Shown here: positions 8,067-15,092 of the stretch, one piece after another
Numbering within the stretch: position 1 is the first letter of the stretch
Layout: every line of letters begins with the position of its first letter
From: a virus
Direction: 5' to 3' (one strand)
Virus record (IMG/VR): IMGVR_UViG_3300038701_002503
Coordinates: 1-29,054 of that record
DNA: 29,054 nt
Notes under the pieces: model-generated
What the model saw: only the letters and a program-made list of their open reading frames with translations
Told to the model about the DNA's origin: nothing
Databases searched by the model: none
Translations under genes and position numbers: made by a program

Positions 8067-8759
8067 ATGAAAGTTATAGGATTCGCAGAACAATTTTACA
8101 CCTTGTGGGAAGTTGAAAAAACTAAAGTTGAAATAAATCGTTTTCAGTTCAAAGAAAAAACCCATTTTCTATATATTCAAAATTTATCGAAAGATTTAGA
8201 GATTGCAAAATCTAAAATCAATGAACCTTTTGAAATTGATACTAATTTAAGGGGTGAAAAAAGATCTTTTTACACAGAAGGTGATCCGCAAGGGGTGATT
8301 CCTGATACTGTTTTTAAGTTCGGAAAATATCAATATGAAGAGATTAAAAATTGCAGCGACACAGGTTATGTTAAATGGTATTACAGCGAGACAAACAATA
8401 GTCATGCCTTGGATTTGCTTTTAAAAAACGGTTATGAATTGATAGACGGTGTTTTATATGATTTAAACGAGGCTAAAAAACAAAAACATCTTTTAAATTT
8501 AAAACGAGGGCATTTGTTTAACAATAAGGAAAGAGTTGAGCTAAAAATAAAAACTATTGAGTCATTCAGTTTTGAAGGTTATTACGGAATCACTTATGTA
8601 AGGATTTACGAAACTGAATGCGGAAAAGAAGTTAAGTATATAGGCGGAAGTCCTTTAAATATTAGTGATGAAGATTTTGAATCAGTGAAAGCTACAATCA
8701 AGCACGACATTTATGAAGATCAAAACGAAACAAAAATACAACGAATAAAAAGATTATGA
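8067..8759 (+). CDS. Protein with exonuclease-X C-terminal-like and SSB-like segments
   Basis: This 230-residue protein has a middle segment, VFKFGKYQYEEIKNCSDTGYVKWYY (about 81-105), that matches the FGKYKGK..YLKWL pattern of the small domain at the C-terminus of ExoX-type nucleases. The C-terminal third (about 148-230: GYYGITYVRIYETECGKEVKYIG, then KATIKHDIYEDQNETKIQRIK) resembles an OB-like module appended to many phage replication proteins. No nuclease domain is present. It overlaps folE by 4 nt, so it may be co-translated with it. A role in DNA or RNA binding is inferred. Confidence 0.55.
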   Translation: MKVIGFAEQFYTLWEVEKTKVEINRFQFKEKTHFLYIQNLSKDLEIAKSKINEPFEIDTNLRGEKRSFYTEGDPQGVIPDTVFKFGKYQYEEIKNCSDTGYVKWYYSETNNSHALDLLLKNGYELIDGVLYDLNEAKKQKHLLNLKRGHLFNNKERVELKIKTIESFSFEGYYGITYVRIYETECGKEVKYIGGSPLNISDEDFESVKATIKHDIYEDQNETKIQRIKRL

Positions 8760-9406
8760 AAAACGATCCAGAATTAGGAAAAAAAGTTGCTGAGCACCTT
8801 AAGTCTTTAAGCTTAGAAACACCTGTCAAAAATGTAATGCAATACAGCGAAGCTGATAAGCTCGTTGTGATTGAAGAAAAATTCAAGTCAATCATGCAGA
8901 TGCTAGGTTTAGACCTTGAAAATGACAGCCTGCAAGAAACACCGAAACGAGTTTCAAAAATGTTTGTCAACGAAATATTTGAAGGGCTTGACTACAATAA
9001 TTTTCCACGATGCATGTCTGTTGAAAACGAATTTAAGTGCGACGAAATGGTAATTGAAGGAGGTATTGATGTCAGCAGCGTATGTGAGCATCATTTTCAA
9101 AATATAGAAGGAATTGCTAAGGTAGCCTATATTCCTAAAGATAAGGTCATGGGTTTATCAAAGCTTAATAGAGTAGTTAGGTTTTTTAGCAAGCGGCCAC
9201 AAGTGCAAGAGCGATTAGGTTTACAAATTCAGGCCGCATTATCTTTTATTCTAGAGACCGAAAATGTAGCTGTCGAAATAAGAGCCATTCACCATTGTGT
9301 TAAATCAAGAGGTATCGAGGATAAAAACTGCTGGACAACAACCAGGAAGCTTGGCGGAAGCTTTAAGGATCCAGAGGTTAGAAACGAATTTTTAAACACT
9401 AATTAA
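8756..9406 (+). CDS. folE: GTP cyclohydrolase I (FolE)
   Basis: This 216-residue enzyme converts GTP to 7,8-dihydroneopterin triphosphate, the first step to 7-deazaguanines. The zinc ligands are visible as Cys110 and His113 (CEHH) and Cys181 (IHHCV), and the motifs ETPKRVSKMF, AYIPKDKVMGLSKLNRVV and QVQERL are intact. The residue numbering agrees closely with the bacterial enzyme. It starts inside the end of the preceding gene (ATGA overlap). In a phage lacking other folate genes, the clear context is the queE/queD/dpdA cluster downstream, so it probably raises flux to modified bases in DNA. Confidence 0.95.
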   Translation: MKNDPELGKKVAEHLKSLSLETPVKNVMQYSEADKLVVIEEKFKSIMQMLGLDLENDSLQETPKRVSKMFVNEIFEGLDYNNFPRCMSVENEFKCDEMVIEGGIDVSSVCEHHFQNIEGIAKVAYIPKDKVMGLSKLNRVVRFFSKRPQVQERLGLQIQAALSFILETENVAVEIRAIHHCVKSRGIEDKNCWTTTRKLGGSFKDPEVRNEFLNTN

Positions 9407-9407
9407 G

Positions 9408-9707
9408 ATGAAACAAAAAAGAAAATCTTCAGAATCATTACATGATTACAATAAAAGAATGAACAAAAATAGATTTCCTTGGATTGATATTTTAGGATGG
9501 ATAGGTGTCCTTTTATTGCTACTAGCCTACTATTTAGTCACTCAGAAAATAGTTAGCCCAATTGGTTTAAATTATAATTTGATAAACTTATCTGGAGCCT
9601 CGATGCTTTGTGTAGTTTTTGTCAAAAAGAAAATTTGGTCAAACCTATTTTTAGAAATCGTATTCATCTCGATAGCGTTAATCGCGATCTATAAAAACTT
9701 ATTTTAA
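9408..9707 (+). CDS. CBU_0592-like membrane protein
   Basis: This 99-residue protein has a basic N-terminus (1-23) followed by probably three hydrophobic segments (about 24-45, 53-73 and 76-97). The pattern ILGWIGVLLLLLAYYLV, then a SGASMLCVVF turn and a C-terminal helix, is typical of the small CBU_0592 membrane family (function unknown). It sits between folE and queD with 1-nt spacing on each side, yet has no known link to deazaguanine synthesis; a role in the host envelope is possible. Confidence 0.65.
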   Translation: MKQKRKSSESLHDYNKRMNKNRFPWIDILGWIGVLLLLLAYYLVTQKIVSPIGLNYNLINLSGASMLCVVFVKKKIWSNLFLEIVFISIALIAIYKNLF

Positions 9708-9708
9708 T

Positions 9709-10188
9709 ATGTACCAATCAACAAAAATAATAGACGGATTCAGCACTTGTTTCAGACAATGGCGAGCAAAGACTTCACATTGCAGATTTATCCACGGTTA
9801 TTCAATTAGATTTAAACTTACTTTTCAAGCTGCAAAGTTGGATGACAGAAATTGGGTTCAAGATTTTGGTTTCACAAAAAGCAAACTAATGATTGAACCT
9901 AATGGCATAAGTATAAGTATCAAGGACTGGTTTAAATACATGTTTGATCATACAACTATTGTGGCAGAAGACGATCCTATGCTAGAGCTTTTTAAAGACT
10001 ATTCAGCTGAGGCTGATTGTGAAGGTGTTTTTGATTTAAGAATTTTACCAAATGTTGGTTGTGAGGCTTTTGCAAAATATGTATTCGATTTTATTTCTGA
10101 AAACATATTAGAAGGCCAAAGCAGAGTTTCGCTTATCTCTGTTGAGTGCATTGAAAACGAAAACAATTCAGCAATCTATAAAGATTAA
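9709..10188 (+). CDS. queD: QueD, 6-carboxytetrahydropterin synthase (phage type)
   Basis: This 159-residue T-fold enzyme is expected to turn dihydroneopterin triphosphate into 6-carboxytetrahydropterin. FSTCFRQWRAKTSHCRFIHGY (11-31) contains the Cys25 and His24/His29 region; the third His of the usual HGH motif is Tyr31, a variation I recall from phage QueD-like proteins. WVQDFGFTKSKL (49-60), FDHTTIVAEDDP (about 79-90) and the C-terminal GCEAFAKYV (the usual T/S-x-E helix) are present. It is longer than the ~120-residue bacterial enzyme. It is the last gene before a promoter at 10203. Confidence 0.85.
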   Translation: MYQSTKIIDGFSTCFRQWRAKTSHCRFIHGYSIRFKLTFQAAKLDDRNWVQDFGFTKSKLMIEPNGISISIKDWFKYMFDHTTIVAEDDPMLELFKDYSAEADCEGVFDLRILPNVGCEAFAKYVFDFISENILEGQSRVSLISVECIENENNSAIYKD

Positions 10189-10260: not shown

Positions 10261-11067
10261 ATGAGCACAAATTCACAAGTCAGTCACAAAACGCTTTTCG
10301 AAGATTTAGGTTATTTTATAGAGTACTTATATGATGACGGTAAATTAGCTGGAACAGTCAATGTTGATAAAAACGACAGAGATTCTGTAGGTTATTACAG
10401 CACTCAACATCACGTTGCTGAAAAAGATATTGTTTTTAAAAACAAACGGATTAAAAAAGGAATGAACTACCGAACTAGAATTTATCCAATGTGCGGTAAA
10501 ATAATAATTAATAAAATAGAAGATAAAATGCCAAAGCAAGTAGAAATCAAAAATGCGCCAGGTTATGTAATTACACCTGAAGGAATTGTAAGCAATGCAA
10601 AAACCAAAAAACCAGTTTCTGAATCAAAAGGTTCTGTTAGACTTACGGTTGACGGAAAAAGAAAAACGTTTAAAGTAAAAGACCTTTTAGTCACTTATTT
10701 TCCTAGTAATAACGTAGATGAGAAAAAAGGGAAAGGATGGAGTAAATCTGGTTCAGTAACTGCTGATGGCAAGCCTAAAGCTGATAGCAAGCCTAAAGCT
10801 GATAGCAAGCCTAAAGCTGATAGCAAGCCTAAAGCTGATAGCAAGCCTAAAGCTGATAGCAAGCCTAAAAAACTTTCTAGAAGCCAGGAAATTTATATTA
10901 TGCAAAGCGAAGGAAAAACAGCTAAAGAAATCAAAGAAGCTAACCCGGATTTCTCTTTAGGTCATATAGGCAACGCTTTAAGGCATGCTAAAAACAATCC
11001 AGAAGTGATTAAAAAAGCTAAAAAGCTGAAAAAGCTGAACGAAAAGTTTAAGTCTAAAAAGAAGTAA
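10261..11067 (+). CDS. NUMOD4-like DNA-binding protein with KPKADS repeats
   Basis: This is a 268-residue protein. Residues 1-88 form an unrecognised N-terminal domain. Residues about 90-135 (KNAPGYVITPEGIVSNAKTK, then DGKRKTFKVKDLLVTYF) match the NUMOD4-type DNA-binding motif of homing endonucleases. Residues 171-203 hold five perfect KPKADS repeats, and the C-terminus (SRSQEIYIMQSEGKTAKEIKEA) looks like a helix-turn-helix followed by a Lys-rich tail. No HNH or GIY-YIG nuclease domain is present, so it is more likely a DNA-binding regulator or nucleoid-type protein. It is the first gene behind the promoter at 10203. Confidence 0.65.
   Translation: MSTNSQVSHKTLFEDLGYFIEYLYDDGKLAGTVNVDKNDRDSVGYYSTQHHVAEKDIVFKNKRIKKGMNYRTRIYPMCGKIIINKIEDKMPKQVEIKNAPGYVITPEGIVSNAKTKKPVSESKGSVRLTVDGKRKTFKVKDLLVTYFPSNNVDEKKGKGWSKSGSVTADGKPKADSKPKADSKPKADSKPKADSKPKADSKPKKLSRSQEIYIMQSEGKTAKEIKEANPDFSLGHIGNALRHAKNNPEVIKKAKKLKKLNEKFKSKKK
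10771..10869 (+). repeat. 18-bp tandem repeat inside a gene
   Basis: Five perfect copies of AAGCCTAAAGCTGATAGC (10771-10860) are followed by a partial sixth (AAGCCTAAA, 10861-10869). They encode KPKADS units. Perfect DNA identity points to recent expansion by slippage, and copy number may vary between isolates. Confidence 0.9.
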
Positions 11068-11068
11068 G

Positions 11069-11416
11069 ATGAAGATTAATATAGTCGTAACTTTACAAGT
11101 AGAAGGAGTTCACAACTGGCCTGAGTGTCCGATTGAAGAAGTTAATTTTTTGAAACAGCTTCATAGGCATTTATTCAAAATCAAGTGTAAAAAAGAAGTC
11201 TCTCATGATGACAGAGATGTTGAAATCATACAGCTTAAAAGAAAAATTCAATACCACCTTAAAACAGAATATGGTATCGGGTACGAAGGGTTAAACGGTT
11301 GTCATTTTGGTAGAATGAGTTGTGAGCAAATAGCTCTAGAGCTTGTCAGAACTTTTGATTTGAACTATTGCGAAGTTCTTGAGGACGGAGAGAACGGTGC
11401 AGAAATAACAAAGTAA
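11069..11416 (+). CDS. Second QueD-like T-fold protein
   Basis: This 115-residue protein has the spacing of a small PTPS/QueD fold: GVHNWPEC (His15), then HRHLFKI (His32 and His34; compare HGHNYxV in QueD) and a C-terminal SCEQIALEL helix in place of TAENLA. All three putative zinc histidines are kept. An EVSHDDRDVEIIQLK segment is a hallmark I associate with a phage family of this fold with no assigned reaction. It has a 1-nt gap to the radical SAM gene. It may act on a pterin or on a deazaguanine; the fold call is fairly good, the reaction unknown. Confidence 0.6.
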   Translation: MKINIVVTLQVEGVHNWPECPIEEVNFLKQLHRHLFKIKCKKEVSHDDRDVEIIQLKRKIQYHLKTEYGIGYEGLNGCHFGRMSCEQIALELVRTFDLNYCEVLEDGENGAEITK

Positions 11417-11417
11417 T

Positions 11418-12137
11418 ATGAAAAAGATTAAAATTTTCGCAATGGAAACCACAAACCATTGCAATGCGAAATGTTGGTTTTGCCCGCATCCTGATCCAAA
11501 GCTGCATAATAGACCAAAGGGATTAGTGAGCATGGATACAGTAGATCAGATTATCAAGATGCAAGCTGCTGACACTATTTCAATCAACGGTTTAGGCGAA
11601 CCATTAATGCATCCAAGAATCATTGAAATAGTTCAGAAGTTTACCGACGCTGGTATCAAAACATTAATAAACAGTAATGGAAAGATGGTTACTCAAAAAA
11701 TGTACGACAATCTTTACGACGCTGGGTTAACTAGATTAGTAGTTGCGAGTGATTACTTTGAATGGAAAGAAGGAAAAGTAATTGAGAAAGACGATTTTAA
11801 AATAGAGCATATCGTAGTTGATTCTGAGCCAAAAGAGTTTCAAGAGAAAAAAGAGCTCTATGACTGGGCAAGCAGAGTTGGTGAAGCTAAAAATAAACCA
11901 ACGAATTGTTCGTATATTGAGGATAATTGGATCCAGGTTCAATGGGATGGACGAATTGTAAGATGCTGCCAAGATTTCAATACTGAGGAACCATTTGGAA
12001 CTATATTTGATTTTGATGCTGACGCTATTGCCGGAAAAGGAATAGACGCTTGCGGTACTTGCCAAGGCTTTAGATTTAAACATGCTTTGGTGGTTGGAGA
12101 TTACGAGGGATTAAAAGAACATAAAACAGAAAGATAA
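11418..12137 (+). CDS. Radical SAM enzyme with SPASM-like C-terminus
   Basis: This 239-residue protein has the CxxxCxxC motif at Cys15, Cys19 and Cys22 (HCNAKCWFC), binding the [4Fe-4S] cluster that cleaves S-adenosylmethionine. INGLGEPLMHP (about 54-64) is the GGE-like motif and TLINSNG follows the usual strand. The C-terminal part carries WDGRIVRCCQD and CGTCQG, typical of SPASM-type auxiliary cluster ligands. It is distinct from QueE, which is encoded separately at 14385. It is flanked by the T-fold protein and the glycosyltransferase and lies three genes before queE, so its substrate may be the 7-deazaguanine or a peptide; not known. Confidence 0.8.
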   Translation: MKKIKIFAMETTNHCNAKCWFCPHPDPKLHNRPKGLVSMDTVDQIIKMQAADTISINGLGEPLMHPRIIEIVQKFTDAGIKTLINSNGKMVTQKMYDNLYDAGLTRLVVASDYFEWKEGKVIEKDDFKIEHIVVDSEPKEFQEKKELYDWASRVGEAKNKPTNCSYIEDNWIQVQWDGRIVRCCQDFNTEEPFGTIFDFDADAIAGKGIDACGTCQGFRFKHALVVGDYEGLKEHKTER

Positions 12138-12138
12138 A

Positions 12139-13128
12139 ATGAAGATCATATACATAGCTTTAGAGAATATTGAGCAAAGATATACCCCAATGATGAACAG
12201 CAGCTTAGGCAAGTTGTGTGACGTTGTGGTTTACCCAGAATTCAATTATCCGGAAGTAATAGAGAAAGGTCAGTTTTTAGATGTAAATAAAACAATTATT
12301 TTCAAGTCTAAACAACTGCAAATGATATCGGAAATGTTCTACAACGGAAAAGTCAATGACGGAGATGTTTTTCTTGTTGGAGATATATTTTTTCCAGGTA
12401 TTGAGTCAATTAAATACATGGCTGAACTACAAGGTATTTCAGTTAAGGTTTACGGTTTTAATTACGCAGGTAGAGCTGATAAAACGGACTTCGTTCAAAA
12501 GCTTGGCGGATGGGCTGATTACAGTGAAAAAGGTTACCACTTAGTTTGTGACGGTATTTTTGTTGGTAGTCAGTTTCATAAAGCACAAGTTTGTGATCAC
12601 TTTCGTTTACCTGCTTCAATGGTTCATGTTACTGGTTATATATGGGACAGAGATTACGTCGAGAACATTTTTGACGGAACTTTTGAAAAAGAAGATTTTG
12701 TTATTTTTCCGCATAGGTTGTCAAAAGAAAAGGGTATCAAAGAGCTTTTACAGTTTGCAGCTATCACAGATAAAAAAATATTGGTAACCAGCAGCGGTAA
12801 TCGTGTTGATATTGAATTACCAGAAAATATTAACTATGTAAGCAACTTATCAAAGAAAAATTATTACCGATACTTGGCTAGAGCTAAATACTATTTGAGT
12901 ACCGCTTACCAAGAGACTTTTGGATATACACTTCAAGAAGCTATTCATTTCGGGTGCAAAATCGCAGTTCCTGACAGGGCTTGTTACAAAGAAATGGTTC
13001 CTTTAAGTGCTGTTTATAAAAGCGTTGAAACAATCGATTTCGTTGATGTTGATGAGAGTTATACCGAGCAATGGAATAAAAATGCTCACGACGTAATTAG
13101 GTTAATAAACAATGAGCGAAGAAAATGA
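12139..13128 (+). CDS. GT-B family glycosyltransferase (GT4-like)
   Basis: This 329-residue protein has an N-terminal Rossmann-like half without clear signature. The C-terminal half contains FPHRLSKEKGIKELL (about 194-208) and the EX7E motif of retaining GT-B enzymes (Glu259 and Glu267 in STAYQETFGYTLQEAIHFGC), followed by PDRACYKEM. The sugar donor is probably a nucleotide sugar. Its ATGA-type overlap with dpdA suggests a product used on the same pathway, for example glycosylation of the modified base in DNA, as phages do with hydroxymethylcytosine; this is inference. Alternatives are host-surface or capsid glycosylation. Confidence 0.75.
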   Translation: MKIIYIALENIEQRYTPMMNSSLGKLCDVVVYPEFNYPEVIEKGQFLDVNKTIIFKSKQLQMISEMFYNGKVNDGDVFLVGDIFFPGIESIKYMAELQGISVKVYGFNYAGRADKTDFVQKLGGWADYSEKGYHLVCDGIFVGSQFHKAQVCDHFRLPASMVHVTGYIWDRDYVENIFDGTFEKEDFVIFPHRLSKEKGIKELLQFAAITDKKILVTSSGNRVDIELPENINYVSNLSKKNYYRYLARAKYYLSTAYQETFGYTLQEAIHFGCKIAVPDRACYKEMVPLSAVYKSVETIDFVDVDESYTEQWNKNAHDVIRLINNERRK

Positions 13129-13922
13129 AAATAATAGTCGCCGGAAGTAACACAAGAGACGCTGAAAAAATTTGTAAAGAAAACAAAGTGATGAAGCTTT
13201 ATTCTCTTCTCAACGAAAGAAAACTGATTGAAAATTGGGATGACGAACACTTGCTTATGGTTGACAGTGGTGCTCATAGCTGGAACAAAGAAGGAATCAC
13301 TCCTGTCGGAATGAAAAGAAATTCAAAGCTCAAACCGGCTCGAGAATTTTACGATTTTTATTTAGATTTTATACAGCAGCACAAGGATAAAAAAGTGGTT
13401 TGGGTTGAATTTGACGTTTACGGACATTTACCAGTCAGCTTAATAGATGATTTTTACGATCAAGTTATGAGCATGAATATATCTGGTAAATTCATGAGAG
13501 TTTATCACCCAATGTTAGACGACGGAAGTATGTCTGTTTTAAAAAAATGGATGAATCAAGGTCATGAATATATAGGTATAGGAAACGACTCAACCAATAT
13601 GCTAGATGAAATATTTCACTTAACAAGGGATCAAACCAAGCTTCATGGTTTTGCGATGACAAAGCTTGGTTTGATGGAAAAATATCCGTTTTTCAGTGTT
13701 GATTCAACTTCACCTTTGAGTACCGTAATTTTTGGTAGATATACTAGGCCTATAATGGCTTTCAACGAAAGATCCGATATAAGCGAAGCGAAGTCAATTG
13801 AGTGCTTTGATGACGATTGGGACAGAATTGAAAACGCAATAATTGAAACAAAAAAAACCGAAGACTATGTTACAGAATTGTGGTCTAAAAAAGGAATACA
13901 ATGGCAGGATTTAAAATTTTAA
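13125..13922 (+). CDS. dpdA: DpdA-type DNA guanine transglycosylase
   Basis: This 265-residue protein belongs to the phage DpdA branch of the tRNA-guanine transglycosylase superfamily. It would swap guanine in DNA for a 7-deazaguanine by base exchange. The catalytic regions are visible: LMVDSGAHSW with Asp47, VWVEFDVYG (92-100), YIGIGND (149-155) and HGFAMT leading to FFSVDSTSP with Asp193. It lacks the zinc-binding Cys cluster of bacterial TGT and is shorter, as expected for phage members. It overlaps the glycosyltransferase by 4 nt and the ParB-like gene by 22 nt. The subfamily cannot be fixed by eye. Confidence 0.85.
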   Translation: MKIIVAGSNTRDAEKICKENKVMKLYSLLNERKLIENWDDEHLLMVDSGAHSWNKEGITPVGMKRNSKLKPAREFYDFYLDFIQQHKDKKVVWVEFDVYGHLPVSLIDDFYDQVMSMNISGKFMRVYHPMLDDGSMSVLKKWMNQGHEYIGIGNDSTNMLDEIFHLTRDQTKLHGFAMTKLGLMEKYPFFSVDSTSPLSTVIFGRYTRPIMAFNERSDISEAKSIECFDDDWDRIENAIIETKKTEDYVTELWSKKGIQWQDLKF

Positions 13923-14404
13923 AAACAAAAAAAATAGATTTACCAGAACACAACTTGGTAACCGAACTAGATCCGCTTGAAGCTTTAAGTTTTAAAAGAA
14001 TAGAAAACATCTTCGGTCAATATAAATCAATCACAGTTTGTGAAAAAAAAGGTAGGTATTTAATTGTTGACGGGGCAAAGCATTTTAAAAGCTTAATAGG
14101 ACAAGGTTTTGAAAAGATCCTTTGTTTTAATCTAGGTAAACTTAAAAAAGGCGAATACGAGACTACCAGAGCTCTTTTAAACGTACATCAATCTAGATTA
14201 GACTACTTAGGTATCGCAAAATTAATTGAGTCAATTAGAGACGATGATATGAGCTTGAACAATATATCAAACTTATCAGGTCTTGACTTGAAGTCGGTTG
14301 AAAGATATAAACAGTTATTGAAATTCGACTGGGAGGAATTTGATAAAAAAACGAAAAGCGAACAATTTAATCCTTTTGAAAGTTATGGAGAAGAAGAAGA
14401 GTAA
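13901..14404 (+). CDS. ParB/sulfiredoxin-like protein, DpdB-like
   Basis: This is a 167-residue protein. Residues about 20-75 form a ParB-like N-terminal domain (LDPLEALSFKRIENIF, then GRYLIVDGAKHFKSLIGQGF, where DGAKHF at 57-62 takes the place of the DGxxR/DGQR motif). A helix-turn-helix-like part (MSLNNISNLSGLDLKSVERYKQLL, about 110-135) and an acidic tail follow. In bacterial dpd clusters a ParB-like protein, DpdB, is needed together with DpdA for insertion of the base into DNA. The 22-nt overlap with dpdA makes the same partnership likely here. A plain partition or regulatory ParB is the alternative. Confidence 0.7.
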   Translation: MAGFKILKTKKIDLPEHNLVTELDPLEALSFKRIENIFGQYKSITVCEKKGRYLIVDGAKHFKSLIGQGFEKILCFNLGKLKKGEYETTRALLNVHQSRLDYLGIAKLIESIRDDDMSLNNISNLSGLDLKSVERYKQLLKFDWEEFDKKTKSEQFNPFESYGEEEE

Positions 14405-15092
14405 TTTAGTAATATCTGAAAAGTTTTACAGCATGCAAGGCGAGGGGCAAACCATAGGTGTTCCGGCTATATTTATAAGACTTGCTGCTTGTAATATACT
14501 ATGCAAGTCTGAAAGCTGGATTTGTGATTCAATTGAGGTATGGAAAAAAGGAACCAAAACAGAATTTGAAAATGTTTTAAGCGATTATGAAATCAGTTTA
14601 CTTAGACGAGGAGCTCATTTAATATGGACTGGCGGTGAACCGTTGCTGCATATGAAAAAAATAAATGAATACCTTGATTATCTTTGGTTAAACGAGATGT
14701 TTAGGCCAACTATGGAGATAGAAACGAACGGTACTTTGCCTATTAACGACACTTTATTCAGGCAACTTGATTATATCAATTGCTCGCCTAAGCTGCATAA
14801 CAGCGGGGTTGAATTTGAAAAAAGGGTCAACCTTGATGTTATCAGCCAAATTAACGAGCATCAAAATTCAATCTTTAAGTTTGTGATAAGCAACAAATCT
14901 GATCTAGACGAAATACACCAAGACTATGGCGGCATAATAGATCATAAAAAAATTGTTTTAATGCCTGCAGGCGAAACACAAGAAAAACTAAACGAAACAA
15001 GACCTAAAGTTGTTGAAGCTGCTCTTGAGCACGGATATAGATACAGCGATAGGCTTCATATAATAATTTGGAATCAAAAAACAGGAGTATAA
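14385..15092 (+). CDS. queE: QueE, 7-carboxy-7-deazaguanine synthase
   Basis: This 235-residue radical SAM enzyme rearranges 6-carboxytetrahydropterin to 7-carboxy-7-deazaguanine (CDG). SMQGEGQTIGVPAIFIRL (16-33) is the family signature. The cluster cysteines Cys36, Cys40 and Cys47 form a CX3CX6C motif, extended from the usual CX3CX2C. TGGEPL, EIETNGT and NCSPKLHNSG follow. I start at the ATG at 14385; an in-frame TTG at 14340 would overlap the ParB-like gene by 65 nt. The gene overlaps the next ATG by one base. With no QueC in the window, CDG may itself be the base supplied to DpdA. Confidence 0.9.
   Translation: MEKKKSNLVISEKFYSMQGEGQTIGVPAIFIRLAACNILCKSESWICDSIEVWKKGTKTEFENVLSDYEISLLRRGAHLIWTGGEPLLHMKKINEYLDYLWLNEMFRPTMEIETNGTLPINDTLFRQLDYINCSPKLHNSGVEFEKRVNLDVISQINEHQNSIFKFVISNKSDLDEIHQDYGGIIDHKKIVLMPAGETQEKLNETRPKVVEAALEHGYRYSDRLHIIIWNQKTGV

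Follow-up and report, generated by a model that had tools for sequence, protein, structure and literature searches.

What do a radical SAM enzyme and a glycosyltransferase do in an operon that encodes the synthesis of a 7-deazaguanine and its insertion into DNA? DpdA-dependent 7-deazaguanine modification of phage DNA is a known system (Hutinet et al. 2019, PMC6884629). The window analysed here, a virus record of 29,054 bases, carries the genes of such a system together with the two additional genes, hereafter rSAM and GT. The reading favoured here, at a probability of about 0.6, is that the operon directs a QueC-independent pathway leading to a glycosylated 7-deazaguanine in phage DNA, with rSAM altering the sugar.

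Organisation of the operon

The genes are arranged in the order FolE, a small protein, QueD, an HNH-like protein with a Lys/Pro repeat, a T-fold protein (Tf), rSAM, GT, DpdA, a ParB-like protein and QueE (Table 1). An earlier note on this DNA had placed rSAM and GT between the T-fold gene and dpdA at a spacing of 1-4 nt, and these coordinates and gaps were confirmed: 1 nt lies between the end of Tf (11416) and the start of rSAM (11418), 1 nt lies between the end of rSAM (12137) and the start of GT (12139), and the end of GT (13128) overlaps the start of dpdA (13125) by 4 nt (ATGA). The remark that QueE is already present also holds, as a separate QueE gene lies at the 3' end (phrog_2076, 1.9e-56), the true start of which is possibly an internal ATG. 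FolE, QueD, QueE and a DpdA-type transglycosylase are all encoded in one operon within the window, as in known DpdA systems. The window DpdA matches phrog_887 ('queuine tRNA-ribosyltransferase') yet falls below the cut-off of the NCBIfam DpdA model. The window differs from known DpdA systems in that it has no QueC, and Tf, GT and rSAM replace QueC/QueF and their partners. QueC (PF06508) did not exceed its cut-off in the window record or in 25 other records, several of these being fragments, and without QueC, 7-carboxy-7-deazaguanine (CDG) cannot reach preQ0 via the known route.

Table 1. Genes of the modification operon in the window, with the evidence for each assignment
Gene product	Assignment	Coordinates	Strand	Evidence
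FolE	GTP cyclohydrolase I, first step towards 7-deazaguanine	8756..9406	+	Pfam 190.7 bits; NCBIfam equivalog cut-offs passed
QueD	6-carboxytetrahydropterin synthase	9709..10188	+	PF01242 51.6 bits; phrog_2389 1e-40
Tf	Divergent QueD-like T-fold protein	11069..11416	+	phrog_17812 6.4e-25; AF2 fold nearest QueD
rSAM	Radical-SAM/twitch enzyme, BtrN-like, accessory	11418..12137	+	PF04055 above cut-off; BtrN profile match 3.6e-18
GT	GT-B/GT4-type glycosyltransferase, core	12139..13128	+	PF00534 above cut-off; AF2 GT4 fold; linkage 44/44
DpdA	DpdA-like guanine transglycosylase, variant subtype	13125..13922	+	phrog_887 1.4e-13; tblastn to annotated phage queuine tRNA-ribosyltransferases
ParB-like	Recurrent DpdA neighbour	13901..14404	+	phrog_16545 2.2e-4; ParB-annotated gene at same place in phi38:2
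QueE	7-carboxy-7-deazaguanine synthase	14340..15092	+	phrog_2076 1.9e-56; 53% identical to phi38:2 QueE

Linkage of GT and rSAM to 7-deazaguanine genes

A GT profile was searched against 2.9 million viral contigs and 84,980 species genomes. FolE, QueE, Tf or DpdA lies nearby in all 44 viral loci retrieved; most of the loci without a detected DpdA end at a contig edge, and in Sinorhizobium phage Phosso (L036) and in L128 the vicinity of GT contains no recognisable DpdA. Just two short MAG contigs matched among the species genomes, one carrying Tf-rSAM-GT and the other GT-QueD-QueE-FolE. Isolates with GT relatives (26-32% identity) are Pseudomonas phage PA5oct and its kin (the PA5oct/Paride group), Acidovorax phage ACP17, Phosso and Xanthomonas phage X1, in which the gene adjoins Tf or lies in its vicinity, accompanied by QueE and, in most cases, by FolE and a DpdA candidate. 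The GT family in isolates is mostly annotated as 'hypothetical protein', and no member was found outside 7-deazaguanine clusters in the viral contigs, species genomes or annotated phages. The linkage of GT in 44/44 viral loci and both MAG contigs is strong support for placing it in the 7-deazaguanine pathway, of which GT and Tf are almost certainly members.

With rSAM as the lone query, the close viral relatives retrieved numbered just two, at 90% and 45-46% identity, and a further 15 were distant. The 15 loci reached solely via distant rSAM homologues, which served as a control, possess no DpdA, Tf, FolE or GT, and so rSAM homology alone says little about the pathway. Recurrence of the two genes in phages lacking dpdA, which the earlier note had named as evidence against its proposal, was therefore seen for distant rSAM homologues (L133-L147), whereas GT was not found outside deazaguanine clusters. 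The arrangement Tf-rSAM-GT-DpdA recurs in other viral contigs, with a short rSAM in L003 and L018 and a long rSAM in L004, L006, L017 and L047, and is thus not due to chance. Between the window and L003, rSAM retains 90% protein identity despite synonymous sites near saturation (pN 0.06, pS 0.76), which argues that it is no passenger; the remaining operon genes are all less constrained in this comparison, at pN 0.18-0.36.

Phages carry many cell-surface glycosyltransferases, and rSAM is present in a minority of clusters, both of which would suit an origin of GT and rSAM as unrelated cargo, for instance with host-surface or anti-defence functions, whose entry into the operon was fortuitous. The tight spacing and translational overlap, the strong constraint at the protein level and the finding of no GT orthologues in genomes without 7-deazaguanine genes all speak against such an origin, which is rejected for GT by its pathway linkage and is extremely improbable for the pair.

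Fold and probable acceptor of GT

GT is a protein of 329 aa that scores 38 bits against Pfam Glycos_transf_1 (cut-off 26.4), and its AF2 model (pLDDT 89.9) has a complete GT-B fold. The structural neighbours of the model are GT4-type enzymes, namely sucrose-phosphate synthase, BshA, MshA, SenB, LmbT and BGluT, several of which tie in the fold comparison; T4 alpha-GT and beta-GT are not among the fold matches listed. The EX7E motif (E259, E267) and the HR...EK site (H192, R193, K198) are invariant in 21 GT orthologues. The N-terminal part of GT also holds a conserved motif, (F/I)N(Y/H)AGR(A/S)D. The GT-B fold, the EX7E motif and the basic donor-site residues place GT among the GT4-type (GT-B, retaining) glycosyltransferases. 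This fold is common to many small-molecule enzymes and hence is not DNA-specific. GT is also acidic, with a median pI of 5.6, which neither proves nor excludes DNA as its substrate; the isoelectric point was rejected as a guide to DNA binding, several DpdA subtypes being acidic too.

BGluT, a tetrahydrobiopterin alpha-glucosyltransferase, resembles GT in its GT4-type fold and has a pterin as its acceptor, offering a parallel for a different role, in which GT would attach the sugar to a small molecule of the pathway, either a pterin (CPH4, for example) or the deazaguanine as a free base, before insertion or for storage or protection, without the sugar having to persist in DNA. The presence of BGluT among the structural neighbours and the acidity of GT are in keeping with such a role, as is the action of most of these neighbours on small molecules, as described in the literature. 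BGluT is not, however, prominent among GT4 enzymes (Z 20.8 versus up to 25.0) and shares only about 12-14% identity with GT, no closer than other GT4 enzymes. Pterin intermediates also occur in QueC-type phages, for example phi38:2 and NP1, and no GT is seen in the clusters of these two; DpdA is replaced along with GT, which fits a different inserted base. A small-molecule acceptor is quite unlikely on this evidence, and GT probably puts a sugar on the deazaguanine. CDG and 7-deazaguanine are without a hydroxyl, and the conceivable sugar linkages are an ester, an N- or C-glycoside, or a linkage through a group made by Tf.

Tf as the partner of a QueC-less pathway

Tf comprises 115 residues and belongs to phrog_17812, a family of unknown function in PHROGs. 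No PTPS or QueD match was found for it in Pfam, NCBIfam or PHROGs at E 0.1, and its AF2 model (pLDDT 93.7) has E. coli QueD as its best fold match (TM 0.73). The conserved residues H15, H32, H34 and E105 include three histidines and a glutamate that we take to correspond to the zinc ligands and pterin anchor of QueD. At least 578 stretches of viral contigs encode Tf relatives. Tf occurs without QueC in the records tested and is absent from the QueC-bearing phages phi38:2 and NP1, and it is the constant partner of the QueC-less pathway. With its likely metal site and base pocket, Tf would be the best candidate for CDG processing. A phage CDG decarboxylase, DpdL, was reportedly described by Cui and colleagues in 2023.

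Tf and a DpdA-like gene are accompanied by a gene that, by eye, looks like a YhhQ-type queuosine-precursor transporter in Faecalibacterium phage Roos (L040, 9989-11887) and in L111 (10312-10818). No FolE or QueE is present within the stretch of Roos that was viewed, and its gene set suggests base salvage, with Tf acting late in the pathway.

rSAM is a BtrN-like twitch enzyme

rSAM is a protein of 239 aa that scores 40.4 bits against Pfam Radical_SAM (PF04055; cut-off 29.5) and carries the cluster motif CxxxCxxC at positions 15-22 (C15, C19, C22). The earlier note had described it as a radical SAM/SPASM enzyme, of which the radical SAM part stands. A full SPASM enzyme was rejected on the basis of a SPASM domain score of 16.7 bits, under the cut-off of 21.5, and of four auxiliary invariant cysteines (C164, C183, C212 and C215), a number in keeping with a twitch domain that holds one cluster, like that of BtrN. 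Among solved structures, a profile of the window rSAM and five relatives matched BtrN first (3.6e-18, positions 4-217), and the window rSAM alone matched BlsE at 8e-9, in the core only, and BtrN at 1.1e-7 over residues 5-196. BtrN thus matches rSAM along nearly its whole length, and the match across the core and the auxiliary-cluster domain, together with the four auxiliary cysteines, identifies rSAM as a BtrN-like twitch enzyme. A second QueE was considered and rejected, given an E-value of just 0.0036 for phrog_2076 versus 1.9e-56 for the true QueE and an NCBIfam QueE score far below the cut-off.

BtrN oxidises a hydroxyl of an aminocyclitol, and the target of BlsE is the sugar moiety of a cytosine nucleoside; both differ from the phage rSAM in being antibiotic pathway enzymes. 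By distant homology to these enzymes rSAM might act on the sugar, a tentative assignment. Its action could instead precede that of GT, with rSAM making an acceptor group on the base, and the gene order Tf-rSAM-GT-DpdA, which puts rSAM ahead of GT, and the status of rSAM as the most constrained gene of the operon are in line with this. No such rSAM was, however, detected nearby in 71/87 GT loci, and so it cannot be generally needed for the acceptor; the substrates of BtrN and BlsE, its nearest solved relatives, as known from the literature, likewise point away from a role in making the acceptor, which is somewhat unlikely.

Constant and optional parts of the cluster

The comparison covered 109 loci in which Tf was accompanied by a DpdA that could be recognised; duplicate views of the same contig, where spotted, were excluded. 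GT is present with four DpdA subtypes in 77/80 loci (29/29, 22/23, 21/23 and 5/5) but with the fifth subtype, the Cellulophaga phiST type, in 0/29. On the Tf tree, no more than three supported independent pairs bear on this correlation, and their direction is nearly always the one expected (p 0.25); the correlation is striking, but few independent events underlie it. Non-QueE radical-SAM genes are present near Tf/GT in 16/87 GT loci, in several architectures, and the slot between Tf and GT is elsewhere occupied by methyltransferases, a P-loop protein, a DNA-ligase-like protein, a cytidylyltransferase-cupin fusion or unknown genes. GT and Tf are therefore constant, and rSAM is one of several optional enzymes. 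The earlier note had treated the two genes alike, a view that is upheld for GT as a core gene but not for rSAM as an equal partner.

The content of the slot is diverse. A different and longer radical-SAM enzyme of 431-469 residues, with the domain in the middle of the protein, occupies it in L091, L092, L093, L095 and L096. The fusion protein, which joins a cytidylyltransferase-like part to a mannose-6-phosphate-isomerase-type cupin, lies in L112 (10348-11118) and possibly supplies a nucleotide sugar. L055 is closely related to the window operon, and a protein (9594-10037) of a family of about 133 residues (f9) occupies the rSAM position there; this family has no Pfam or PHROG match and recurs beside GT, as in L028 (9689-10090). 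Loci with a phiST-type DpdA (L038, L039, L075, L078, L084, L104 and others) often have a P-loop protein of about 156-166 residues adjoining Tf, possibly another tailoring route. One phage group (L005, L007-L016, L043, L045 and L052) has three glycosyltransferase-like genes around Tf, a B-family DNA polymerase and DpdA, namely GT, a second divergent copy and a member of a 464-residue GT4 family, and perhaps builds an oligosaccharide on the base.

ParB-like proteins lie directly beside DpdA in unrelated operons, at 13901-14404 in the window and at 5352-5816 in L152 (phi38:2 gp51), and further such neighbours of DpdA are f12, upstream of DpdA in L019-L030, and proteins in L057 (11294-11911) and L040 (9156-9992). 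The ParB-like protein may serve DpdA as a DNA-targeting or accessory factor.

Module exchange with Cellulophaga phage phi38:2

The closest isolated phages by QueE and the replication genes are the Cellulophaga phages phi38:2, phiSM and phi47:1, which share the operon order of the window and have close FolE, QueD, QueE, VirE and helicase proteins. Identity between phi38:2 and the window is 67% for VirE, 69% for FolE, 54% for QueD, 53% for QueE, 55% for the primase, 53% for the exonuclease and 70% for the helicase, and the gene order is similar, whereas the DpdA proteins are just 24% identical in a global alignment. Tf, rSAM and GT are all absent from the phi38:2 operon, where gp55, QueF and gp53 lie upstream of DpdA and QueC lies downstream of ParB; QueF, gp53 and QueC likewise stand in place of Tf, rSAM and GT in phiSM and phi47:1. 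The tailoring genes and DpdA thus differ together within an operon that is otherwise conserved, the pattern to be expected of phages that make and insert different bases. Given this synteny, Tf-rSAM-GT-DpdA looks like an exchangeable tailoring module that takes the place of the QueC/QueF module of a syntenic phage. A Lys-rich, low-complexity tandem-repeat protein is encoded at a similar place in both operons, at 10261-11067 in the window (SKPKAD) and at 2915-3523 in L152 (phi38:2 gp55, KKEAPVAKEA).

Proposed pathway and its product

In the proposed pathway, FolE, QueD and QueE would produce CDG, which would be processed along a QueC-independent branch. Tf would act on the 7-deazaguanine and supply the substrate for the later steps, and the DpdA variant would swap guanine in DNA for the resulting base. 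The GT4-type GT would transfer a sugar from a nucleotide-sugar donor onto that base; the relative order of glycosylation and insertion is one that we infer. Here and in a minority of relatives, the BtrN-like rSAM would then tailor the product, most likely by oxidising a sugar hydroxyl. The earlier note had likewise suggested a glycosylated 7-deazaguanine as a possible product. On a broader view, for which the odds appear even, the window would represent a widespread QueC-independent hypermodification, in which a 7-deazaguanine in DNA would be sugared by a GT4-type enzyme and the sugar diversified by exchangeable enzymes: a BtrN-like rSAM here, and methyltransferases, other radical-SAM types and extra glycosyltransferases elsewhere.

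The T4 glucosyl-hydroxymethylcytosine system (alpha-GT, beta-GT) would be a functional analogue, in that a phage-encoded enzyme places a sugar on a DNA base, but it differs in both the base and the handle. Glycosylated queuosine (mannosyl- or galactosyl-Q) is described in the literature as likewise a 7-deazaguanine derivative to which a sugar is added after insertion; it differs in residing in eukaryotic tRNA and in having as its acceptor a cyclopentenediol hydroxyl, which is not expected in the window system. To our knowledge, no sugar-bearing 7-deazaguanine is known in DNA. A search of 5.39 million open-access papers, a set that covers few subscription titles, returned no description of phage DNA with a glycosylated 7-deazaguanine, and term searches of the papers on MIJ3, PA5oct and Paride returned no mention of deazaguanine or base modification. 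The product is likely to be new, within the known DpdA-dependent modification.

If the proposal is true, the bases that phages decorate with sugars would include guanine alongside cytosine and thymine, by way of a queuosine-derived pathway, and bulky, probably restriction-resistant DNA would be present in many uncultivated phages and in the isolates PA5oct, Paride and ACP17. Such bases can disturb the sequencing and cloning of phage DNA. It would also suggest a role for the phrog_17812 T-fold family and for the GT family, and would place a radical-SAM enzyme in a defined context of DNA hypermodification.
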